From an uncultured Litoreibacter sp. (GTDB taxonomy: Bacteria > Pseudomonadota > Alphaproteobacteria > Rhodobacterales > Rhodobacteraceae), in the NCBI GenBank assembly GCA_947501685.1, contig CANMWQ010000003.1, positions 434,001 to 498,000 of the forward strand: 64,000 bases of DNA. The letters run 5' to 3'. The position numbers and the translations under genes are program-made. Positions 12,910 through 36,229 of the stretch are shown in pieces. The notes beneath the pieces are model-generated. The model saw only the letters and a program-made list of their open reading frames with translations, was not told the origin of the DNA and did no database searches. Position 1 is the stretch's first letter, and each line of letters opens with the position of its first letter.

Positions 12910-13371
12910 CTAAAGCGGCAGGGCGGTGGTGGATTTGATCTCCTCCATCGACAGCAGGGCCGTCACATTGAAAATCCGCACCTCCGAGATCAGCGCCTGA
13001 TAGAAGATGTCATAGGCCCGCGCATTGGCGACGCGCACTTTCAGGATATAGTCGATATCGCCCGCCAAACGGTGGGCTTCCAGCACCTCCGGGCGCTCCA
13101 TCAGGGCGGCGAGGAATTTTTGCTGCCAATCGGCCTCATGCTCGGAGGTGCGGACCAGCACGAAAAAACACGCCTCCAGCCCCAGCTTTTCGGGATCGAG
13201 CACCACGGTGTCATGTTTGATCACGCCGCGGGCCCGCATTTTCTTGATTCTGTTCCACACTGGCGTCTTTGAACTGCCTGTATTTTGGGCAATCTCATCA
13301 AGACTTTGTGAGGCGTCGCGTTGCAGCTCCGCAAGGATATTCCGGTCCATCGCGTCAAGTTGGTCTGCCAT
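12910..13371 (-). CDS. Lrp/AsnC family transcriptional regulator
   Basis: The 153-residue protein has an N-terminal winged HTH (about 5-60: LDAMDRNILAELQRDASQSL, TPVWNRIKKMRARGVI). A C-terminal RAM ligand-binding domain follows (about 70-145, VLEAHRLAGDIDYILKVRV). This is the usual Lrp/AsnC layout; such proteins form octamers or dimers and often control the adjacent gene. It is transcribed divergently from the sulfur-assimilation operon, and the 139-bp gap holds three palindromes. Control of that operon by this protein is an inference; the ligand is unknown. Confidence 0.9.
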   Translation of the reverse strand: MADQLDAMDRNILAELQRDASQSLDEIAQNTGSSKTPVWNRIKKMRARGVIKHDTVVLDPEKLGLEACFFVLVRTSEHEADWQQKFLAALMERPEVLEAHRLAGDIDYILKVRVANARAYDIFYQALISEVRIFNVTALLSMEEIKSTTALPL

Positions 13372-13392
13372 TCCGGGTTTCCTTTCGTTTCA

Positions 13393-13477
13393 GAACAAAC
13401 GTTCCTCTATTTTCACTTTGCGGAACATTATTCCTTATCTTCCTGCTTGGGTAGGATTTATTAGGAAATTTTTCTAA
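13393..13477. promoter_or_regulatory. Three palindromes in the lrp-cysG divergent intergenic region
   Basis: The gap between the Lrp-type gene and cysG contains GAACAAACGTTC (13393-13404), GGAACATTATTCC (13422-13434) and TTAGGAAATTTTTCTAA (13461-13477, one mismatched pair). The first two have their centres about 30 nt apart. Lrp-type regulators bind several spaced imperfect palindromes, so these are candidate operators. This is read directly from sequence; binding is inferred. Confidence 0.4.
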
Positions 13478-13510
13478 GTTTAGAGCCAAGCAACGGATGG
13501 ATTGTCTGAG

Positions 13511-14893
13511 ATGAAGCATTTCCCGATTTTTATGGCCCTTGAAGGCCGCCGCGTGGTCCTGTCGGGCGGCGGGGACGCGGCATTGGCCAAGCTGCGCCTG
13601 CTGCTCAAGACCGAAGCCAAAATTTCTGTGGTCGCAGCTGAGGCCGCGCCTGAAATTCGCAACTGGGCGTCGAGCGGCAAGCTGACCCTGATCCCCCGCG
13701 CGATGGAGCCCGGCGACGCGCTCTGCGCCTCATTGTTTTATGCCGCCAATGAAGATGACGCGGAGGATGCCCGCGTGGCCAAGCTGGCGCATCTCGACGG
13801 CGCGTTGGTCAATGTCGTGGACAATCTCGAAGACAGCCAGTTCATCACGCCCGCCATCGTGGACCGCGATCCGGTCACCGTGGCCATCGGCACCGAAGGG
13901 GCAGCACCTGTCTTGGCGCGCTCCATCAAGAAGTCCCTCGAAGAGCAGCTGTCGCCCAATCTGGGCCTGATGGCGCGGGTCGGCAAAGCGTTTCGCAAAC
14001 ATGTCGAGGCCCTGCCCTTTGGCGCCAAGCGCCGGACGTTTTGGTCGGACTATTACAGCACCGATATTGGCGATGCAGAAGTTGCGCAGACCCGGCTGGA
14101 AGACTTGCTCGACACCCATCTGCACGCGCCCGCGCGCGAAGGCTGGGTTGATCTGGTCGGCGCCGGCCCCGGTGATCCCGAGCTGCTGACGCTGAAGGCC
14201 CGCAAGGCCTTGGATAACGCCGATGTGGTGATCTATGACCGCCTTGTCGCGCCGGAAATTCTGGAACTGGCCCGCCGCGAGGCGGTGATGCTGTCGGCGG
14301 GCAAGGAAGGCTTTGGGCCGTCCGTGACCCAAGACGCGATCAACGAGATGATCGTCAGCCACGCCCGTGGTGGCGCGCATGTGGTGCGGCTCAAATCAGG
14401 CGATCCAACGGTGTTTGGCCGCTTGGACGAAGAGATCGAGGCCTGCGAGGCCGCAGGTGTTGCATGGACTATCGTGCCGGGCATCACCTCCGCCTCCGCC
14501 GCCGTCGCCGCGTTGGGACAAAGCCTGACCAAGCGGGGCCGCAACTCTGGCGTGCGCTTCATCACCGGGCATGACACCAAGGGCTTTGCCGATCACGACT
14601 GGCGCGCTTTGGCCGCCAAGGGCGAGGTTGCCGCGATCTATATGGGCAAGAAATCCGCGCGGTTCTTTCAGGGCCGTTTGCTGATGCATGGAGCGGACCC
14701 CGCGACGCCGGTGACGGTGATCGAGAACGCCTCGCGCCCGACGCAGCGCATTTTGACGACGCGCCTGTCCGAGCTGGAGCCCGAACTGACCAACGCCAAA
14801 TTTGACGGCCCTGCCCTCGTTTTCCTGGGCCTCGCGCCCCGCGCCGCGTTGCAGCTGGCCGATCAGTTTGACCAACAGGAGGCTGCGATATGA
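13511..14893 (+). CDS. cysG: Sirohaem synthase, fused dehydrogenase/ferrochelatase and uroporphyrinogen methyltransferase
   Basis: The 460-residue CysG makes sirohaem from uroporphyrinogen III for the sulfite reductase encoded downstream. Residues 1-210 are the precorrin-2 dehydrogenase/sirohydrochlorin ferrochelatase part (VVLSGGGDAALAKLRLL). Residues about 215-460 are the SAM-dependent methyltransferase (VDLVGAGPGDPELLTLKA, VRLKSGDPTVFGR, VPGITSA). An in-frame TTG at 13502 is closer to the GGATGG box, but the ATG at 13511 has better spacing. It overlaps the DUF2849 gene by four bases and heads the operon. Confidence 0.93.
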   Translation: MKHFPIFMALEGRRVVLSGGGDAALAKLRLLLKTEAKISVVAAEAAPEIRNWASSGKLTLIPRAMEPGDALCASLFYAANEDDAEDARVAKLAHLDGALVNVVDNLEDSQFITPAIVDRDPVTVAIGTEGAAPVLARSIKKSLEEQLSPNLGLMARVGKAFRKHVEALPFGAKRRTFWSDYYSTDIGDAEVAQTRLEDLLDTHLHAPAREGWVDLVGAGPGDPELLTLKARKALDNADVVIYDRLVAPEILELARREAVMLSAGKEGFGPSVTQDAINEMIVSHARGGAHVVRLKSGDPTVFGRLDEEIEACEAAGVAWTIVPGITSASAAVAALGQSLTKRGRNSGVRFITGHDTKGFADHDWRALAAKGEVAAIYMGKKSARFFQGRLLMHGADPATPVTVIENASRPTQRILTTRLSELEPELTNAKFDGPALVFLGLAPRAALQLADQFDQQEAAI

Positions 14894-26749: not shown

Positions 26750-29023
26750 TCACTTGCCGGGTTTGTCCCGCTCCACGGTGAAGAAGAAATCTCCCGGCAG
26801 GTCGTCTTGGAAGGCGATCTCGTCGGGCACAACCTGCGGGCCCGTCAGAAACACATTCGCGCCGAAATGGCGGTGCATGCGGGCGAGCCGCTGCATGCGG
26901 GTGCTGGTGAGGTCCTTATAAAAGGCCGCATAGCTTGGCGTGTCGCGCAGCTCCGTGATCTTGGCCCGGTGGGCGGCGACGCAGGCGTTGTGGGCCGCCG
27001 CGATCTCAGCATCGGCCATGAGCGCGTCTAACTCTGCCGTAAGCAGCGCGCGCTTGTCCAAAATGGAGCGGTCTTCCTCCTCGTTATTGTTCATCCTGAA
27101 CCAGTAATTCAGCCCCTGATCGCGCGCCACATGGTTGACCCGCCCCCGGTCGCGCTTGACCAGAAAGCTCTCAGCAGAGCGCACGGCGTAGTGGTTCAGC
27201 GTCACCAGATCGTAGCCGTAGCTGTCCGTGGTCGACCGCCACCCGTTGCGGATCAGCTTTTGCGGCATGGGCACGCCCGAGCCGTTCACCCAAGCGATCT
27301 TGTCCCACAGGTCGGGCTTGAGCCCCTTGGGGCGATGGACCCCCATTTTTTTGTAGATCCCGAGGTTGCGGAACAGCGTCTTGAACCCCCAGGCTTGATG
27401 CGGTTTGCGGATCAGCTCAGGCGCGCAGCGGGTGAATTGGTCGGTCAGGAAGCGGTCATCAAACCCGTGCACATCCGCGTTGCCAAAAAGCCGCCATGTC
27501 AGCGAGATCATGTTGGCCTCGCCCACCGCCTTATAGAGGTCCTGCAGCCGCCCCGCGCCGACATGGATGTTGATGAACTCGTCCACATCCATCGAGATGA
27601 TCCAGCCCGCGTCGCGGACCAAATCTTCCTTATCAGACGCCGCCAACGCCCAGTGTTGCGGCTTCACGCCGGTGCCGTGGAACCTGTTGTCGCGGCGCTG
27701 CACGAGGCCCCGCTCCATCAAAAGGTCCAGCATCGCATCCGTGCCGTCGTCGCAATCATTGGTGTAGATCAGAAAATCATCCACCCCGATGGCGCGGTGA
27801 TAGGCGATCCATTCGAGGATGAACGGCCCCTCGTTTTTCATGCAGGTCACGATCAGGGTGCGGCCCGCCTGATCGGCCGCCTTCGGGGCCTTTTGCATTT
27901 TGCTTTCGGGCGCGCGCACCGGCTTGTGGGACCAGACCTCCTGCGCCATTTTTACCAATTCCGGGTCCTCGATCAGCGAGGTTTTTGGCACGATCTCCGC
28001 CGCCGTGCTGTCCGGGTGGCGAATGCCCATGGCCCGGAAAAACCCGGCCTGATCACGCGGCTCGGGGGCCGCGTCGCCCACGCGGACCAGCCGCCATGTT
28101 TGCTCCGGCTCCAGCCTCTGCGGGACAAGGCACCAGCGGCGGTTGGCCCTTGGGTTGTCGAACTGACGGCAAATATGGTCGCCAAACCGTGGCGCCTGCC
28201 CCGCGCGCACCCGCCACGGATAGACCCGCTGGCCCAGCAGTTGGATCGCGCCCGCAGAGGCGCTCTGGACCTGCTCGAACGGGTCCTCGCCATGTTTGAG
28301 AAGATCGCCCAGATCAAGGTTCATCACCGCGCGGGCGCGCTCAAGGAACCGCCACCGCGCCCATTCATAGAGCTGCAATTCAGCCAAAGGAGCCGTCCAA
28401 GCGTCGCCTTTCGGCGTGCCCATGCGGTCCTTGCCCGGCGCATCGGGTGCGTTGAACGGATGAGACGCGGGTGGCGCCACCGCGTTTCCCAAAGGCACGG
28501 CGCTGGTGACATGGACCAGACGGGTCAACCCAACCCGCTTGGATATCGCTTTAAGGTTGCGCTGTATCTCTTTGTTCTTGCTTGGCTTATCCCGATCAAT
28601 AAGCAGCACAGCTTGCAACCCGAACCTCTCAACATGGTAGCGCAGCCAGTCCTCGATCACTTCTGGCGGCTCGCCGTTACGCTCTGCGATGCAAGTGTTG
28701 AGCCCTTCAAACAGCTCCGTTTCCGGGGCCTGCACTGGCAAGCTCAGTTCGCCGTCCCGCAGCGCGATGCGCAGCTCGCTTGAGGCCTCCTCCACCATGC
28801 CGCTGAGCATCACCCCGCCATTGATCACCCGCGCCTCGCTCAAGACCGCGCAGCCCGCGCACGGCGCGGGGTCAAACATTGCGCCATCCGTGCCAATGGC
28901 GCAGAAGACCCGCAGCCCCATACCGCCCAGAGCGTCGCGCTTTCCGATGCAATCAAGCACCGTAACCCCCTGATTTTGGGTGATATTCAACGATCTGTGC
29001 AGATAGATATCAGCCACCTGCAT
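26750..29023 (-). CDS. Tandem glycosyltransferase: degenerate N-terminal copy plus PF13704-type GT2 domain
   Basis: The 757-residue protein has a complete glycosyltransferase domain at about 390-650. It opens LIVTCMKNEGPFILEWIAYH and has a DxD-type site DVD (479-481, ISMDVDEFINIHVG). Before it, residues about 115-300 look like an older copy: EVIEDWLRYHVERFGLQAVL matches the ILEWIAYHRAIGVDDFL region, and MNLDLGDLL (about 234-242) sits where DVDEF should be, so the acidic pair is broken. No signal peptide or membrane segment is seen, so it should act in the cytoplasm. It overlaps the upstream glycosyltransferase gene by 14 bp. Donor and acceptor are unknown. Confidence 0.85.
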   Translation of the reverse strand: MQVADIYLHRSLNITQNQGVTVLDCIGKRDALGGMGLRVFCAIGTDGAMFDPAPCAGCAVLSEARVINGGVMLSGMVEEASSELRIALRDGELSLPVQAPETELFEGLNTCIAERNGEPPEVIEDWLRYHVERFGLQAVLLIDRDKPSKNKEIQRNLKAISKRVGLTRLVHVTSAVPLGNAVAPPASHPFNAPDAPGKDRMGTPKGDAWTAPLAELQLYEWARWRFLERARAVMNLDLGDLLKHGEDPFEQVQSASAGAIQLLGQRVYPWRVRAGQAPRFGDHICRQFDNPRANRRWCLVPQRLEPEQTWRLVRVGDAAPEPRDQAGFFRAMGIRHPDSTAAEIVPKTSLIEDPELVKMAQEVWSHKPVRAPESKMQKAPKAADQAGRTLIVTCMKNEGPFILEWIAYHRAIGVDDFLIYTNDCDDGTDAMLDLLMERGLVQRRDNRFHGTGVKPQHWALAASDKEDLVRDAGWIISMDVDEFINIHVGAGRLQDLYKAVGEANMISLTWRLFGNADVHGFDDRFLTDQFTRCAPELIRKPHQAWGFKTLFRNLGIYKKMGVHRPKGLKPDLWDKIAWVNGSGVPMPQKLIRNGWRSTTDSYGYDLVTLNHYAVRSAESFLVKRDRGRVNHVARDQGLNYWFRMNNNEEEDRSILDKRALLTAELDALMADAEIAAAHNACVAAHRAKITELRDTPSYAAFYKDLTSTRMQRLARMHRHFGANVFLTGPQVVPDEIAFQDDLPGDFFFTVERDKPGK

Positions 29024-30107
29024 GGACCTTCCCGTAAGCCTCGACCAGTGCCAACGCCGCCTCCTTGGGCAAGGCCGCGCTGCCATCTGCCAGCAGCAGG
29101 CGGCCGTAGAGCTTCAACCCTTCGGGCGTGGCCAAAAGCGCGTCGAACCGCGCACGGTGCCAGTCGCGGCAGGCCGCTTGCGCTTGCGCCACGCCGTCCA
29201 GGCCCATGAACTCCGCCAGCACTTTCTCTGTGCCTGCCGCCATGGCAGCAATCGAGGCATCCTCGACATGGTTAAAATTCCGCTCCACCCAATAGGTCAG
29301 GTCGATGCGTTTGGATTGGTGGTTGGGCAGGCCGCGCTCCTGCTTGATCAGGAAGTCCGCCGCCGAGCGCAGCGAATAGTGGTTCAGCTGCACCAGATCG
29401 CGCGCAATCGGCGCGCCCCAATGCAGGATTTGGCTGTCATCGGCGGGCAATCTGCCCTGCACCTCGCGCCCCGACCCGTCGCGCCAGTCAGGCAGCCCGT
29501 GCCGGTCCGCGTTTTTCTGTTTGGGCCGGTGGACGCCGAATTGGCGGAACGGTCCCGCGCGGCGAAAGAGCGTTTTGAAATAGCTGCCAAGTGCTGGATA
29601 GAGCATGTCGGGTGCGGCGCAGCGGGTGAAGCGCTGGGTGGTGGGCGCATCGGACAGCGCGCTTTGCCCATTATGCCCAAAGAGCCGCCATGGCAGCATA
29701 ATCGCGTCACCGCCTGCGGCCTCGATCAGATCAGGAACGCCGCGCAAGCCATTGTCAAGATTGATAAACTCGTCGCAATCCATGCAGGCAACCCAGTCCG
29801 CTTGTGCCACCATAGGATGATCCCACGCGGCTTTCAGCGCGCGCCATTGCGGCGGCTTCTTGCCCTCCGGCAGGGCTACAACCTGAACTCCCGGCAACAG
29901 GCTCAGCAGCGCCTCCGTGCCGTCCTCGCAATCGTTCACATAGACCAGAAACCCGTCCACCCCGGCGGCGCGGTGATGGGCGATCCATTCCAACAGATGC
30001 GCGCCCTCGTTGCGCATCGTGGTGACCAAAGTCACCGATATGGGGCTGCTCTGGGCCAGGGTTTGGCACCTCTTTTTTGCAGGCAATCCGGCGCGGGGCC
30101 GAATCAC
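29010..30107 (-). CDS. Glycosyltransferase family 2-like (PF13704-type) protein
   Basis: The protein contains one glycosyltransferase domain starting SVTLVTTMRNEGAHLLEWIA with a DxD-type site DCD (about 110-112, CMDCDEFINL). It is a paralogue of the adjacent 757-residue protein and of the gene at 31850. The start is uncertain: the frame opens at 30206, but those ATGs lack a ribosome binding site. GTG at 30107 has AAGGA 4 nt upstream and is chosen (365 residues); GTG at 30035 is also possible. The product is cytoplasmic, with no membrane segment in the chosen form. Its sugar substrate cannot be predicted. Confidence 0.85.
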   Translation of the reverse strand: MIRPRAGLPAKKRCQTLAQSSPISVTLVTTMRNEGAHLLEWIAHHRAAGVDGFLVYVNDCEDGTEALLSLLPGVQVVALPEGKKPPQWRALKAAWDHPMVAQADWVACMDCDEFINLDNGLRGVPDLIEAAGGDAIMLPWRLFGHNGQSALSDAPTTQRFTRCAAPDMLYPALGSYFKTLFRRAGPFRQFGVHRPKQKNADRHGLPDWRDGSGREVQGRLPADDSQILHWGAPIARDLVQLNHYSLRSAADFLIKQERGLPNHQSKRIDLTYWVERNFNHVEDASIAAMAAGTEKVLAEFMGLDGVAQAQAACRDWHRARFDALLATPEGLKLYGRLLLADGSAALPKEAALALVEAYGKVHAGG

Positions 30108-30198
30108 CTTTTCCTTGCGTTTTACCCTGCCCTTTGCGAGAATCGAAACAAGCATAACCAACAAGGCGGGGCAAACCCGCTCAATCGCGGGGCACATC

Positions 30199-31845
30199 GT
30201 GAGCAAAGACTACGCAATCGCGCAGCTGTGGATAGACGGCGACCTGACTTATCTGGAGCAGCTTTGCGCCGTTTCTTTCCGCGATGCGGGCCATCATGTG
30301 AAGATGTATACCTATGGCGAGGTCGGCAACATCCCCGAGGGGATCGAGGTGTGCGATGCCAATGACATTCTGCCGCAAAAGACCTTTCTGACCCATGAAC
30401 GCACCGGCTCGCCCGCGCTGCATTCAGATCTATGGCGCTACAAGCTTTTGGAAAAGCACGACGATATCATCTGGGCCGATACGGACGCCTATTGCGTCAA
30501 ACGGTTCAAGACGCCGAACGGACATTTCTACGGCTGGGAATCTGCGACCCATATCAATGGCGGCGTGCTGGGTCTGCCGCAGGACAGTGAAACGCTGGCC
30601 GCTTTGCTGGACTATACAAGCGACGAATATGCTATCCCTGAATGGTACGGGAAAGAGTACCGGGCCGAATTGGAAGCTGCCAAGGAGGCTGGCACGCCGC
30701 TACATGCAGGCGAGCAGCCCTGGGGCGTCTGGGGGCCGCATGCGATCACGCATTTTCTGAAGAAGACAGGTGAGGCGCGCTATGCCTTGCCGCCGGAGGG
30801 GCTCTACCCGTTCCATTTCAAACGCCGCCTGATGATGCTGCGCCCCGGCTTGGACATCTCGCGCAATGTGACGGACAACACCTACTCGATCCATTTCTAT
30901 GGCCGCCGCATGCGCCGCCGTTTGATGACCCATGAGGACGGCTTGCCGCCCACAGGCAGCTTGCTGGATCGTCTGATCAAGAAGCATAAGATCAACCCAG
31001 CCGACGCGCCGATGCCCGACTATGTCCCGCGAGAGGAAGAGGCCGCCAAGAAGAACGAGGCGGCCAAGAAAGGTGCTGCCGTCAAGGCTGCGAAAGCGCC
31101 GAAGGTTCAGGCACCAAAGGCTGAGATTCCCACGCCTCCGCGCGTCCAAGCAGTGGACAGATACGGGCGCGGGCAGGTGAACCTGACGGATTTGGCCGAC
31201 AAATACGGCTCCGACAAAGGCTCCACCAAGCACCGCTACACGGAGCTTTACAACATGCTCTTCCAGCCCTTTCGCAAACGGGCGATCACGCTTCTGGAGA
31301 TGGGGCTGCAAATCGGCGGGCCGGAGCATGGCAAGGACGCCTCGCGCGAAACCACTGACGCGCCGTCCGTGCGCATCTGGCTGGAATATTTCGAAAAGGC
31401 CCAGATCATCGGGCTCGACGTCTCCGATTTCAGCTGGTTCAAGGAGGACCGGTTCCGCTTCGTGCAATGCGACATGGATAAGCGCGAGAATATCCGCGCC
31501 GCCGCCGCTGATATGGGCAAGCTCGACATCATCATCGACGACGCGTCGCATGCCAGCCACCACCAGCAATTTGGCTTTCTGGAGCTGTTCCCCAAGCTGG
31601 CTTCCGGCGGGCTTTACGTCATCGAAGACCTGCGCTGGCAGCCCGAAAAGATGGAGCGCGACGGCTTTCCGAAGACCGCCGATCTGTTTCAAAGCTATCT
31701 GAAGAAGGGGTTCTTCGACCATCCCGACCCCGCGCTCAGCGAGGAGATCAACGCCCTGCGCATAGATATCTCCGGCTGTTTCGTCTTTCAGGCGCATTTC
31801 AACAAAAACAAGCGCGATCAGGTGCTTGTGGTCCATAAACGGTAG
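30199..31845 (+). CDS. Glycosyltransferase-methyltransferase fusion protein
   Basis: The 548-residue protein joins two enzymes. Residues 1-260 look like a GT32/alpha-1,4-transferase-type glycosyltransferase with a DxD motif DTD (94-96, IIWADTDAYCV), SDLWRYKLLE before it and INGGVLGLP after. A Lys/Ala/Pro-rich linker follows (about 272-318). Residues about 328-548 are a SAM methyltransferase-like domain (LADKYGSDKGSTKHRYTELY, TLLEMGLQIGG, DIIIDDASHASHHQQFGFLE, GGLYVIEDL), resembling sugar O-methyltransferases of the macrocin/rhamnosyl type. The start is GTG at 30199, giving the conserved opening SKDYAIAQLWI. It leads a four-gene run. The sugar and methylation site are unknown. Confidence 0.85.
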   Translation: MSKDYAIAQLWIDGDLTYLEQLCAVSFRDAGHHVKMYTYGEVGNIPEGIEVCDANDILPQKTFLTHERTGSPALHSDLWRYKLLEKHDDIIWADTDAYCVKRFKTPNGHFYGWESATHINGGVLGLPQDSETLAALLDYTSDEYAIPEWYGKEYRAELEAAKEAGTPLHAGEQPWGVWGPHAITHFLKKTGEARYALPPEGLYPFHFKRRLMMLRPGLDISRNVTDNTYSIHFYGRRMRRRLMTHEDGLPPTGSLLDRLIKKHKINPADAPMPDYVPREEEAAKKNEAAKKGAAVKAAKAPKVQAPKAEIPTPPRVQAVDRYGRGQVNLTDLADKYGSDKGSTKHRYTELYNMLFQPFRKRAITLLEMGLQIGGPEHGKDASRETTDAPSVRIWLEYFEKAQIIGLDVSDFSWFKEDRFRFVQCDMDKRENIRAAAADMGKLDIIIDDASHASHHQQFGFLELFPKLASGGLYVIEDLRWQPEKMERDGFPKTADLFQSYLKKGFFDHPDPALSEEINALRIDISGCFVFQAHFNKNKRDQVLVVHKR

Positions 31846-31849
31846 CCGC

Positions 31850-32839
31850 ATGTCGGAGCGGTATCTGGTCCTGACCTGCATGAAAAACGAGGGCCCGTTC
31901 ATCTTGGAATGGGTCGCCTACCATCTGTCCATCGGGTTCGACCATTTTCTGGTCTTCACCAATGATTGCGACGACCCCACCGTGCCGATCCTGACCCGGT
32001 TGCAAGAGCTGGGGCATGTCACCCATGTGGACAACACGCATCGCCCCGGACAGCGCCCCTCCCATCAGGTGCGCGCCTTTCGCAAAGCGCCGCGCCAGCA
32101 GGCCTATCAGGAGGCCGATTGGGTGGCGGTGATCGACACGGATGAGTTCATCAATATCCATGTGGGCGACCGCTCCATCCGCGCGCTGACCTCTGCTGTG
32201 CCCAAGGCCAAGTGCATCTCCCTGACATGGCGGCTGTTCGGAGTGGGCGACCGCATGACATATCGCGACGTGTTCCTGACCGAAGACCTGCGCCACGCGG
32301 CCCCGCTGCATTGCCCCAAACCGGCGCAGGCTTGGGGGATGAAAAGCATTCATCGCACAGATGCCGTCACCGTCACAGGCGCGCATCGGCCCAAAATTGT
32401 GCCGGGTGATGACTGGAAAGCGCTGGGCTGGGTCAACGGCTCCGGGGAGGAGATGCCGGAGGCCTATTATGCCCAAGGTTGGCGTATGAAACGCGGCACC
32501 ATCGGCTATGAACTGGGCCAGCTGAACCATTACGCGCTGCGCAACCGGGAGACCTATCTGATGAAAAGCGTGCGGGGCCGGGCCGGCACGCGGGTCAACA
32601 CGGATGGCACGATGGGGGCCACCTATTGGCACCAGATGAACCGCAACGAGGAGCTGGACGAGACCATTCAACCCCTCCTGCCCGCCGCCCGCGTGATCCA
32701 TGCGCAGTTGATGGAAGACCCAAAACTCAGCCGCCTGCACCGCCGCGCGGTGCGCTGGCACACGAATTCCATCGCCAAGCTACGCGACACTGAAATGAGC
32801 CGCGAATTGCTGGCCGCCACTGAGGCGCCTGCCGCATGA
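31850..32839 (+). CDS. Glycosyltransferase family 2-like (PF13704-type) protein
   Basis: The 329-residue protein opens YLVLTCMKNEGPFILEWVAY and carries a DxD-type site DTD (96-98, VAVIDTDEFINIHVG). It is the third paralogue of this type within 6 kb and is closest in its motifs to the C-terminal half of the 757-residue protein. The ATG lies 4 nt after the preceding stop, and its end overlaps the hydrolase-like gene by 4 bp, so it is part of one operon. The cytoplasmic enzyme's acceptor is unknown. Confidence 0.87.
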   Translation: MSERYLVLTCMKNEGPFILEWVAYHLSIGFDHFLVFTNDCDDPTVPILTRLQELGHVTHVDNTHRPGQRPSHQVRAFRKAPRQQAYQEADWVAVIDTDEFINIHVGDRSIRALTSAVPKAKCISLTWRLFGVGDRMTYRDVFLTEDLRHAAPLHCPKPAQAWGMKSIHRTDAVTVTGAHRPKIVPGDDWKALGWVNGSGEEMPEAYYAQGWRMKRGTIGYELGQLNHYALRNRETYLMKSVRGRAGTRVNTDGTMGATYWHQMNRNEELDETIQPLLPAARVIHAQLMEDPKLSRLHRRAVRWHTNSIAKLRDTEMSRELLAATEAPAA

Positions 32840-33801
32840 CGGCCCCGCTGGACCTCTCTTTCACCGAGCAAGAGCTGACCCGCGACGCATGGGGTGCTGC
32901 GCTGCGCGCGCTTGGCGACACACACGGGTTCTATGAGGAGATCGGCGACGAGCACACCGCTTTATTCGTCAAATCCGGTAAGACGCTGATCATTTCCTTT
33001 GAAAATCTCGACCATGTCTATGAGGACGGCAACCGCCTGCCTTGGGGCTTTGATTTCGTGCAAAAACAGGGCTGGTCGATCCTCGGCATGATGGCGCATG
33101 GCTGGACATGGTATCGCCATGAGGACGTCTACGCCTTCTTCAACCGCCTGCGCGACGAGGGGTTTTTCGCACAATTCGACCGCGTGGTGTTTTACGGCGC
33201 CTCCATGGGCGGCTACGCGGCCTGCGCGTTTTCCGCCGCCTGCCCCGGCGCCACAGTGGTCGCGATCAGCCCGCAGGCCTCGCTCGACCGGGACCTGTGC
33301 TCATGGGAGCGGCGCTATCAACTGGTCTGGTCGCGCGATTTCACCTCGCAATATGGCTACGCGCCGGAGATGTCGGCCAAGGCCGAAAAAGTCTACATCT
33401 TCTACGACCCGTTGGAGCCGCCAGACGCGATGCATGCGGCCCTCTTTCAAAACCCCAATGTTATCAAGTTCAAATGCCGCTTTCAGGGCCACCGCATCGC
33501 CTCTGGCTTCGTGAAGATGGGCATCCTGAAACAGGTGGTCACGGGATGCGTTGACGGCACGCTGGACCGGCACGGGTTCTACAAGCTGCTGCGCGCCCGG
33601 CGGGGCTTCAAACGCTATCTGCGGGAGCTGATGCAGCGCATCAACGAAACCAAGCACCCGCTGCGCGTCGCCATCGTGGCCAATCACACGCTCGCCATGG
33701 GCCGCGCGCCGGTGTTTCGCCGCAAGAAAAACGCTGCCGACAAGCTGCTGCGCAAGCGCGGGCTGACGCCCCCCGGCGAAGATATGGGCGTGGATTTATG
33801 A
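32836..33801 (+). CDS. Alpha/beta-hydrolase-like protein of the glycan cluster
   Basis: The 321-residue protein has a nucleophile elbow GASMGG (Ser123), Asp191 in FYDP and His219 in GHR, consistent with a Ser-Asp-His triad of an alpha/beta hydrolase. There is no signal peptide. The same core, with all three residues, forms the C-terminal half of the next gene's product (Ser456, Asp524, His552). It overlaps both neighbours by 4 bp. I do not recognise a named family. Possible roles are esterase/acyltransferase action on the glycan; this is inference from company. Confidence 0.75.
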   Translation: MTAPLDLSFTEQELTRDAWGAALRALGDTHGFYEEIGDEHTALFVKSGKTLIISFENLDHVYEDGNRLPWGFDFVQKQGWSILGMMAHGWTWYRHEDVYAFFNRLRDEGFFAQFDRVVFYGASMGGYAACAFSAACPGATVVAISPQASLDRDLCSWERRYQLVWSRDFTSQYGYAPEMSAKAEKVYIFYDPLEPPDAMHAALFQNPNVIKFKCRFQGHRIASGFVKMGILKQVVTGCVDGTLDRHGFYKLLRARRGFKRYLRELMQRINETKHPLRVAIVANHTLAMGRAPVFRRKKNAADKLLRKRGLTPPGEDMGVDL

Positions 33802-35684
33802 CAGGCACGATCTGGCTCCATATAGGCTCGCCCAAGACCGGCACCACCTCGCTGCAACAGTTCCTGCAGGTCAACGAGGACCGGTTGCGCAATGAGGCCG
33901 GGCTCAACTACATGCAGGCCGGGCGCAGCCATGTCGCCCATAACGAGATCGCCGCCAATGCAAGGATCGGCACCACCGGCCCGCTTTTTGACGCCATTTT
34001 GGCGGAGGCCGATGCCCAGCCCGATGCCCAGCATGTGCTGTCCTCCGAGATGCTCTTTAACCCGCATGTCGCCCGCAAACTCACCGCCACCATCCCGGCT
34101 GCCATGCGCGGGCGCACCAAGCTGATCTGCTATCTGCGCCGTCAGGACGCCTATCTTGAGGCGCTCTACAAACAATTCCTGAAAAACGGCCGTATCCCGC
34201 CGGACCGCGACGCGTTTCTGGCCAAGGCCCCCAAGCTGATCCGCTATTGGGACGTGATCGATGGCTATGGGCAGGTGCTTGGCCCCGAAAATGTGGTGCT
34301 GCGCCCGTTCAGCCCGACCCACTTGGCAGGCGGCGACATGGTGCAGGATTTCACCGACCAGCTGGGCCTCGATCTGCCGGAGGATCTGGACCGCGACGAG
34401 GGGTTCGCCAACAAGACCTTCTCCGCCGAGATGTCGGAGGCTCTGGCCATCATGGGCGAGGTCACCGAGTTTCGCACCCGGCAGGTCATCCGCGAGCTGA
34501 TCGCGTTGCAGCATCCCGGCACTATCCGCTCCCGCGACGTGTTTTCCGGCGCCCAGCGCCACCAGTTGATGCAGGACATGGCACCTGAGACCGAAAAACT
34601 GGTCAAAACCTACCTGCCCGAGGACGCCGCTTTCTTCGCCTATGACGATATCGACACCTCCGAGGAGAGCGCGTCCGAGGAACGCGCCCAACAGCTCAAA
34701 GACCGCGCGAGCGCGATGGAGGCGATCCTGAAAGCCATCGGCACCCTGCAAGCGCGCCACGCCCAGCAGACCGAAACCTCCGCCGAAGAGCCTGTTTCAC
34801 CCGAGCCAGAGCCAAAGCCCGAGGAAGAGGCCCCGGTCCTGCCCACATGGTATTGCGAGATCTACCCCGCAGGCTCAAGCAATGGCTGGTTCCACAAATT
34901 CGACGATTACAGCTGCTCCTTTGTGGAGCGCTCCCGCGCGCAGCTGGTCGTCAGTTTCGACAATCTCAGCCAGGCCGGAAACCCCAACACCGCCCGCGAG
35001 CCATGGGCGCAAAAGTTTTGCGCGGATCGCGGCTACAGCCAGCTTGGCGTCTACGCGCAAAGCTCCACTTGGTTTCGAAATGCCGACCTGATCGCCCATC
35101 TCGACGGGCTGCGCGACGCGGGCTTTTTCAAGCGCTTCGAGGCCGTCTCCTTTGTCGGCACCTCCATGGGGGCCTTCGGGGCCGTCAGTTTTTCCAGCCT
35201 CTCACCGGGGGCCACCGTGGTGGCCTTCAGCCCACAAACCTCGCTTGATGAGGCGAAGGTCCCGTGGGAAAAACGCTTCGCCAAAGGCCGCGCCGCGGAC
35301 TGGTCCCTGCCCTATTCGGACGCCGCAGAGCACACGGCCACCGCCTCCAAAATCTATCTGGTCTATGACCCGTTTCACGCAGGCGACCGTGCCCATGTCG
35401 CGCGTCTCTCAGGCGGTAATCTGATCCATCTCAAAGGCTTCGGGCTGGGCCATAAATCCGCGCTGGTGCTCAACCGGATGGACGCGCTGAAATCGGTGAT
35501 GGAAGGCGGCATCACCGGCACGCTGACCGAGCCGGAATTCTACAAAACCATCCGTGCCCGCAAGGGCATCTACCTCTACCGCAAAACCATCGAAGGCTAT
35601 CTGGAGGCCCGCGGCCAGACAGAGCGGCGCACGCGTTTTGCCGCCGCTTTCAAGAAATACCGCAAATCGCTGAAAACCGCCTGA
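33798..35684 (+). CDS. Sulfotransferase-like domain fused to alpha/beta-hydrolase-like domain
   Basis: In this 628-residue protein, residues 1-280 resemble sulfotransferases. The PAPS 5'-phosphosulfate loop is GSPKTGTT (10-17), and [17 protein letters not shown] (108-124) fits the 3'-phosphate-binding strand and helix. An acidic, Pro/Glu-rich linker follows (about 283-348). Residues about 350-628 repeat the hydrolase-like fold of the preceding gene: GTSMGA (Ser456), VYDP (Asp524), GHK (His552). It is the last gene of the operon. It may sulfate a sugar or lipid acceptor using PAPS; the hydrolase domain's partner role is unknown. The call is from motifs only. Confidence 0.78.
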
Positions 35685-35757: not shown

Positions 35758-36054
35758 TCAGCAGCGATACGCCGTTCCGCTTACCTCAAACTGCGGCTCA
35801 CCCGGTGCCACCGCGTCGAAGACAACCGTGTTGGCCCCCTGCTCCAACGCCGTGCGTTTCGCCGCATTGCGCGCGTCTTTCAACCCGATCCCGGCCAGCG
35901 GTCCAAACACCGCAGGCACACCCGTGACCCGGCCCAGGTTCTGGCAGGCCGCCACATCGCCCGGCCCCGCTTCACGCACGGTTTGCACCGCCACTGCGGG
36001 CGGCGTACAGGCCCCCAGCAACGCAACGCTCATCACCATCAAGACCTGCTTCAT
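35758..36054 (-). CDS. DUF4156 lipoprotein
   Basis: The 98-residue protein begins with a lipoprotein signal ending in the lipobox LLGAC (Cys16). The mature part [19 protein letters not shown]...[23 protein letters not shown] fits DUF4156, small Rcs-regulated-type outer-membrane lipoproteins. Three further cysteines are probably periplasmic. The ATG at 36054 has GAGGG 5 nt upstream; the frame opens 29 codons earlier without support. Function unknown. It is divergent from pyrC. Confidence 0.85.
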
Positions 36055-36229
36055 ATCGCCCTCATTTCTGTTTTCATCCAGCCTAGGGCAGCGCGGTGCA
36101 AAAGGGCAGCGAAAGCCGCCTGCCCGCCATGCGACCGGCAAGTTTCAGCCCGCCCCCAATCGCGCTGGCCCCCGGCTTGCGAATTGGCTACACCATGCCC
36201 GACCGTACGCGCCCAGGGAGGCCTCCATC

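Follow-up and report, generated by a model that had tools for sequence, protein, structure and literature searches.

A predicted glycan assembly and decoration locus in an uncultured Litoreibacter sp. has counterparts at the same chromosomal site in many Rhodobacteraceae genera

Introduction

What do six closely packed genes, three of which encode multidomain proteins, do in an uncultured Litoreibacter sp., and are they peculiar to it? The genes lie at positions 26750-35684 of a stretch of 64,000 nucleotides, called the window here (GenBank assembly GCA_947501685.1, contig CANMWQ010000003.1, positions 434,001 to 498,000 of the forward strand). They form two divergent groups. Genes A and B are on the minus strand, and genes C, D, E, and F are on the plus strand. 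A preliminary description, made from the sequence alone, had given these six genes in two divergent groups, which is confirmed here, and had counted three multidomain proteins, which are A, C, and F.

The window locus is not a one-off: many Rhodobacteraceae genera carry a version of it at the same site. Its enzymes are of known types, but they are arranged in an uncommon way. It would assemble and decorate a glycan in the cytoplasm, and the product would be exported, likeliest as part of a surface polysaccharide (probability about 0.6). Searches aimed at such a locus, made by listings of the open-access literature, returned no description of one.

Members of the Rhodobacteraceae are common in the sea. 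Domains of the kind encoded by gene E (E-type domains) are present in 233 of 294 sampled genera of the family and are mostly unnamed or doubtfully named in the records seen. The wider interest lies in the conserved site, a candidate acetyltransferase family, and the repeated occurrence of degenerate-looking enzyme domains.

A locus at a shared chromosomal site

Because genes C, E, and F fell under every Pfam cut-off, alignments were built from related loci. E itself had a match in 234 of 295 Rhodobacteraceae genomes. The E profile found matches in no more than 9 of 289 genomes sampled from the whole class, and 4 of these 9 belong to the Rhodobacteraceae. The window's own genome contains two E-type copies only, both in the locus (E and the C-terminal domain of F, F-C).

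The window locus sits between coxE-moxR(-gcdH) and pyrC-pyrE-dnaB, with alr farther on; these short names were assigned from Pfam matches. Either coxE/moxR or pyrE/dnaB, or both, were found within 20 kb around E in all 20 loci taken from lower-ranked matches (L078-L097). The same was true of 8 of the 20 loci picked by rank (L040-L059) and of 1 of the 11 loci L061-L071, some of which are on short contigs. Among the matches listed, E was within 15 kb of pyrE in 69 of 98 rows from genomes with a listed pyrE (59 of 65 lower-ranked and 10 of 33 top-ranked rows). The window's own genome counts among the rows within 15 kb; G252 (18.6 kb) and G168 (15.5 kb) narrowly miss that distance.

All 20 loci L078-L097 encode an E without the Ser and His of its predicted active site. 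Thirteen of them carry a sister cluster at the same site, which we call the type I cluster. It contains a sulfotransferase-like/glycosyltransferase fusion and further glycosyltransferases. A second sulfotransferase (PF17784 type) was present in 11 of the 13, and an FkbM-type methyltransferase was present in 11; both types were taken from L058. L058 and L059 are type I clusters too. Six loci (L080, L083, L088, L090, L096, and L097) have the degenerate E and no recognised cluster gene within 20 kb; in L082, one glycosyltransferase accompanies E. Intact and degenerate E occur together in L052, L054, and L057.

The type I cluster shares with the window locus the site, the central glycosyltransferase, and the make-up of glycosyltransferases, sulfotransferase, methyltransferase, and E. 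By tree position, the central glycosyltransferase is orthologous in both versions: that of gene A and that of the type I fusion form sister clades (support, 0.927; each clade, 1.0). The versions differ in the partner of this enzyme, which is a sulfotransferase-like domain without a P-loop in type I clusters and a glycosyltransferase-like domain (A_N) in the window locus. The type I partner is homologous to the N-terminal domain of F, F-N (hhalign probability, 96.7; E value, 4.7e-10), and keeps PKxGT in 0 of 15 sequences. Type I clusters also differ in having the FkbM-type methyltransferase and an E without Ser and His. Because the other version (degenerate E, often with a type I cluster) occupies the same site, the Litoreibacter arrangement may be a replacement there.

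Two contigs alone, L061 and L062 (the latter cut at both ends), both from uncultured Litoreibacter, showed the exact order A-B-C-D-E-F. Subsets of the genes co-occur in many genera. Homologues that were never found together would have counted against the preliminary description, and these contigs refute that possibility.

Trees were built with FastTree and midpoint-rooted for display, and support values were read for the named glycosyltransferase clades. The glycosyltransferase tree omits L062 and L063 (whose location is that of L044), and both alignment A3 and the E tree omit L062 (two rows), L065, L066, and L074.

Glycosyltransferases

Genes A, B, and D encode the three PF13704-like glycosyltransferases of the preliminary description. 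Gene A is at 26750-29023 on the minus strand, in an open reading frame (ORF) that reaches 29086. Gene B is at 29010-30206 on the minus strand as the longest ORF, with a likelier start at the ATG at 30155; it is also present in L061 and L062. Gene D is at 31826-32839 on the plus strand as the longest ORF, with a likelier start at the ATG at 31850. All three pass the Pfam gathering cut-off of 27.5 bits, with 70.8 bits for A (E value, 1.4e-19), 66.2 bits for B (3.8e-18), and 86.1 bits for D (2.4e-24). As in the PF13704/GT92-like family, DxDE is kept, and it was intact in 90 of 90 aligned glycosyltransferase domains of this type. The profile of these domains gave no meaningful match in the PDB.

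Gene A differs from the family in carrying an extra domain. Its C-terminal domain (26750..27868, minus strand) is the PF13704/GT92-like glycosyltransferase, with DVDE intact. Its N-terminal domain, A_N (27869..29023, minus strand), is a degenerate-looking glycosyltransferase-like domain. None of 19 A_N domains retains the second Asp of DxD, although all 19 retain an Asp that follows, so A_N is likely, but not certain, to be catalytically inactive. An A_N profile search retrieved stand-alone proteins (best E value, 1.6e-28). These have an intact DxD in 5 of 5 aligned sequences, and 4 of 6 match PF13704 below the threshold (2 of 6 do not match). Aligned directly, A_N and PF13704-type domains gave a weak match (hhalign probability, 2.6; E value, 0.018), and the proposed link between them runs through these intermediate proteins. 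A search of the PDB with A_N returned nothing useful. The structure model of the gene A product, made from 5 sequences, was poor, with a mean predicted local distance difference test (pLDDT) score of 48.0.

A_N matches were present in 111 of 295 Rhodobacteraceae genomes. Among the matches listed, 43 of 78 strong rows (best per genome) had an E row within 10 kb, 17 had E farther away or on another contig, and 18 had no E listed. In three of the 17 (G235, G288, and G211), E is on the same contig, 10 to 15 kb away.

The glycosyltransferase-methyltransferase fusion

Gene C (30199-31845, plus strand) encodes the fusion of glycosyltransferase and O-methyltransferase proposed earlier, and profile matches in the PDB agree with both halves. 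The N-terminal half (30199..31008) matched SetA (profile A4; E value, 3.8e-7), and D-x-D is present in 21 of 21 sequences. This supports a predicted SetA-like DxD glycosyltransferase. The C-terminal half (31099..31845) matched 8ia9 (profile A5; E value, 1.7e-26) and 3ssm (2.3e-25), presumably TylE and MycE, respectively. The similarity covers the catalytic core, and the DDxSH and IED stretches are common to C and 8ia9, a demethylmacrocin O-methyltransferase. A predicted sugar O-methyltransferase of the TylE/MycE type is thereby supported; such an enzyme would methylate a sugar hydroxyl and depend on SAM and a metal. It differs from those enzymes in its fusion to a glycosyltransferase, and no macrolide genes were found among the flanks scanned.

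Gene E and E-type domains

Gene E (32836-33801, plus strand) had been described as hydrolase-like. That holds for the fold: the structure model (pLDDT, 84.3) is an alpha/beta-hydrolase. As to function, E and F-C (34833..35684, plus strand) look more like predicted glycan O-acetyltransferases of the CsaC or Asp2 kind than like hydrolases.

The candidate catalytic residues of E are S123, Q147, D191 or D197, H200, and H219. F-C is 33-35% identical to E. Both keep the Ser, the His, the Gln, and Asp at 191 and at 197, which gives each a Ser-His-Asp triad with D191 or D197 as the acid. D197xxH200 has the Asp-His spacing of CsaC, but D191, at a strand end, may be the acid.

CsaC (PDB 6yuo) O-acetylates the capsule of Neisseria meningitidis serogroup A. 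E shares with it the fold, the GxSxG Ser, the Asp, the His, and a Gln 24 residues after the Ser, and it has a DxxH pair that may be equivalent to that of CsaC. By position only, an invariant Phe of the E family stands at the expected oxyanion residue, and an invariant Arg follows the Gln by 13 residues (10 in CsaC). E differs from CsaC in a C-terminal helical extension, and one clade of its relatives differs in having lost Ser and His. The Gln is present at Ser+24 in 66 of 67 E-type domains; in the control set, made up of alpha/beta-hydrolases of the window's genome that bear the motif, it is present in 0 of 16. Passages of the CsaC study describe this Gln as positioning acetyl-Ser and mattering for transfer, and its authors suggest there that Gln-extended alpha/beta-hydrolase O-acetyltransferases be studied further (PMC7501274).

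The fold matches of E include the CsaC-type fold, and esterases score equally well. The best fold Z score was to chain B of the Gap123 complex (PDB 6oyc), which we take to be Gap2/Asp2. Asp2 acetylates N-acetylglucosamine (GlcNAc) on a glycoprotein, according to sections of one study (PMC5578698). The Asp2 family (PF16929) gave a weak match in 1 of 47 E-family members (E value, 0.035), and the window locus differs in having no accessory Sec gene among its ten scanned flanks. The E profile searched against PDB sequences did not retrieve CsaC up to an E value of 5; its best match was a generic hydrolase (0.046). A single-sequence search of the PDB returned nothing useful, and a viral-structure search returned generic hydrolases only. 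Against XcbB/CpsF (NF033892), E scored 10.8 bits with a cut-off of 125; 11 of 47 E-family members matched below the cut-off at E values up to 1 (best, 0.032).

Two names for E-type domains were set aside. The label "SASA" was a guess with no such Pfam match. E relatives on Thioclava plasmids (NZ_CP149516.1, NZ_CP135444.1, and NZ_CP149927.1) are annotated as phosphoadenosine phosphosulfate reductase, a name that we doubt because the model and motifs of the window E are those of an alpha/beta-hydrolase.

Ser123 and His219 are both lost in 26 of 67 E-type domains, the His alone in one, and the Ser alone in none. Because they are lost together and the Ser never alone, the pattern supports Ser123 and His219 as the predicted working pair. 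Twenty-five of the 26 domains are in one clade of the displayed tree, and the 26th is the F-type copy of L050. This shows that a degenerate-looking form of E has spread yet kept the Gln, Arg, and Asp positions.

Gene F

Gene F (33798-35684, plus strand) had been called a sulfotransferase-hydrolase fusion. It is a fusion, and its second half is an E-type domain, a second predicted O-acetyltransferase. F-N (33798..34802, plus strand), which carries a PKTGTTS loop, may be sulfotransferase-like. It matched PF00685 at 14.4 bits (E value, 0.025), below the gathering cut-off of 22, and matched PDB 3rnl at 0.011. PKxGT, with its Lys, is the 5' loop motif for 3'-phosphoadenosine 5'-phosphosulfate (PAPS) in sulfotransferases. 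All 8 F-N domains in alignment A6 retain the P-loop Lys, seven with PKTGT and one with QKTGS. The genome encodes an adenosine 5'-phosphosulfate kinase (E value, 1.6e-60), so PAPS can be made.

Proposed function

Gene order, domain assignments, conservation, and the genomic site are seen directly; what each enzyme does and in which sequence, on what acceptor, and how the product leaves the cytoplasm are inferred. A, B, the N-terminal half of C, and D would add sugars from nucleotide-sugars to an acceptor in the cytoplasm, building an oligosaccharide. The C-terminal half of C would O-methylate a sugar. E and F-C would move acetyl from acetyl-CoA to sugar hydroxyls via acetyl-Ser, as in CsaC, and F-N would add sulfate from PAPS. 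The finished product would leave by export machinery encoded elsewhere.

The preliminary description had proposed that the locus builds, O-methylates, and perhaps sulfates a glycan. The domains fit this, with methylation and sulfation as optional modules in relatives. It had also noted no flippase, polymerase, or sugar-nucleotide genes, and there were none among the ten flanking ORFs, the extent of the check. The self-contained pathway that it suggested is not supported, since sugar donors and an export route have to be supplied by genes outside the locus.

A surface polysaccharide is the first choice of product because plasmid E-type genes occur near dTDP-rhamnose genes, elsewhere near sulfotransferase and UDP-galactopyranose mutase genes, and, for a partial match, near exopolysaccharide (EPS)-type and sugar-transferase genes. 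These contexts were drawn from 6 of 78 matching plasmid records. The context of the Thioclava E-type genes does not fit: their neighbours are a sulfatase gene and one annotated as formylglycine-generating enzyme.

If glycan decoration is correct, E-type domains are markers of loci that determine how a glycan is acetylated, methylated, and sulfated. They would also be a further candidate family among Gln-extended alpha/beta-hydrolase O-acetyltransferases. This family has a built-in control, the clade that lacks two catalytic residues and keeps the rest.

We suggest, tentatively, a broader possibility, that of an undescribed and widespread Rhodobacteraceae glycan module in which catalytically degenerate domains act as scaffolds or in chain recognition and whole decoration enzymes are swapped at one site, altering the surface glycan. 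These domains would be the glycosyltransferase-like or sulfotransferase-like partner of the central glycosyltransferase and the acetyltransferase-fold protein without Ser and His.

It is rather doubtful that E and F-C are esterases that strip O-acyl groups off a glycan instead of adding acetyl. The near-invariant Gln, relevant to transfer in the CsaC passages cited above (PMC7501274), argues against removal, and packing with sugar-adding enzymes would fit addition better.

It also seems unlikely that the acceptor is a protein, such as a secreted adhesin, that receives its sugars in the cytoplasm before export, like accessory Sec serine-rich-repeat glycoproteins. The best Z score of E, to a chain that is presumably Asp2, is consistent with such an acceptor, as is the lack of a flippase gene among the ten scanned flanks. 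The glycoprotein GlcNAc acetylation ascribed to Asp2 in those sections of PMC5578698 agrees with it. Genes with a calcium-binding protein annotation are within about 10 kb of E-type matches on Loktanella and Phaeobacter plasmids, and the Phaeobacter plasmid has type I secretion genes. However, the recurring neighbours at 40 genome loci, several excepted, were identified as housekeeping genes.

Decoration of a lipopolysaccharide core or glycolipid is less likely still. In its favour, in L047 an A/C/E/F-type cluster is followed 103 bases on (13775-13878) by a 3-deoxy-D-manno-oct-2-ulosonic acid (Kdo)-transferase ORF (PF04413; E value, 7.9e-49), and soluble glycosyltransferases with no flippase would be suited to modifying a core or lipid at the inner membrane; but L047 is a single locus and none of the ten scanned window flanks is such a gene.

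Reshuffled modules in relatives

The modules of the locus are reshuffled elsewhere. The glycosyltransferase of C is fused to E or to D, F-N occurs as a stand-alone protein, and sulfatases occur as neighbours. Some loci have another sulfotransferase type between the C-type glycosyltransferase and E (PF03567 in one member scanned). Sulfation and methylation appear to be optional because sulfotransferase-type matches were present in 10 of the 20 loci L040-L059 and the C-type methyltransferase in 2 of the 20.

A domain of 140-165 amino acids, with no Pfam match in three proteins scanned, precedes E in six loci (L052-L057). It lies between the C-type glycosyltransferase and E when these are fused. 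An F-type E domain with an unnamed C-terminal domain was found in L050 (11560-15848), L051 (3027-7624), L068 (5342-9659), and L072 (3560-7902). These fusions adjoin a sulfatase (PF00884 in L050) and may be a glycan-trimming counterpart. In L072, from Thioclava, the gene named formylglycine-generating enzyme is between two E-type genes, with a sulfatase-like gene nearby. The match on Phaeobacter pP72_d covers 51% of E at 28% identity. A 16-kb plasmid named as Bacillus velezensis (NZ_CP061939.1) has an E-family match at 13335-14168 with 36% identity; it is possibly mislabelled Rhodobacteraceae DNA.

Gene spacing and flanking genes

The overlaps given in the preliminary description hold for A/B (14 bases), D/E (4 bases), and E/F (4 bases). 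Those of B/C (8 bases) and C/D (20 bases) exist for the longest ORFs only; with the likelier starts, there are gaps of 43 bases between B and C and 4 bases between C and D. The hydropathy maximum (19-residue mean, 1.86) is at the N terminus of the longest B ORF, mostly upstream of the likelier start. The top means of the remaining five proteins are 0.96-1.48. A promoter scan between B and C found no sigma-70-like site and two terminator-like matches.

Eight of the ten flanking ORFs had Pfam matches. These were a CoxE-type VWA protein, an AAA ATPase, an acyl-CoA dehydrogenase, an amidohydrolase, a phosphoribosyltransferase, DnaB, an EngA-type GTPase, and an alanine racemase; two had none. A small ORF (35758-36141, minus strand) without a Pfam match lies between F and the dihydroorotase-like gene. 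It encodes a hydrophobic stretch followed by a Cys and appears lipoprotein-like by eye.

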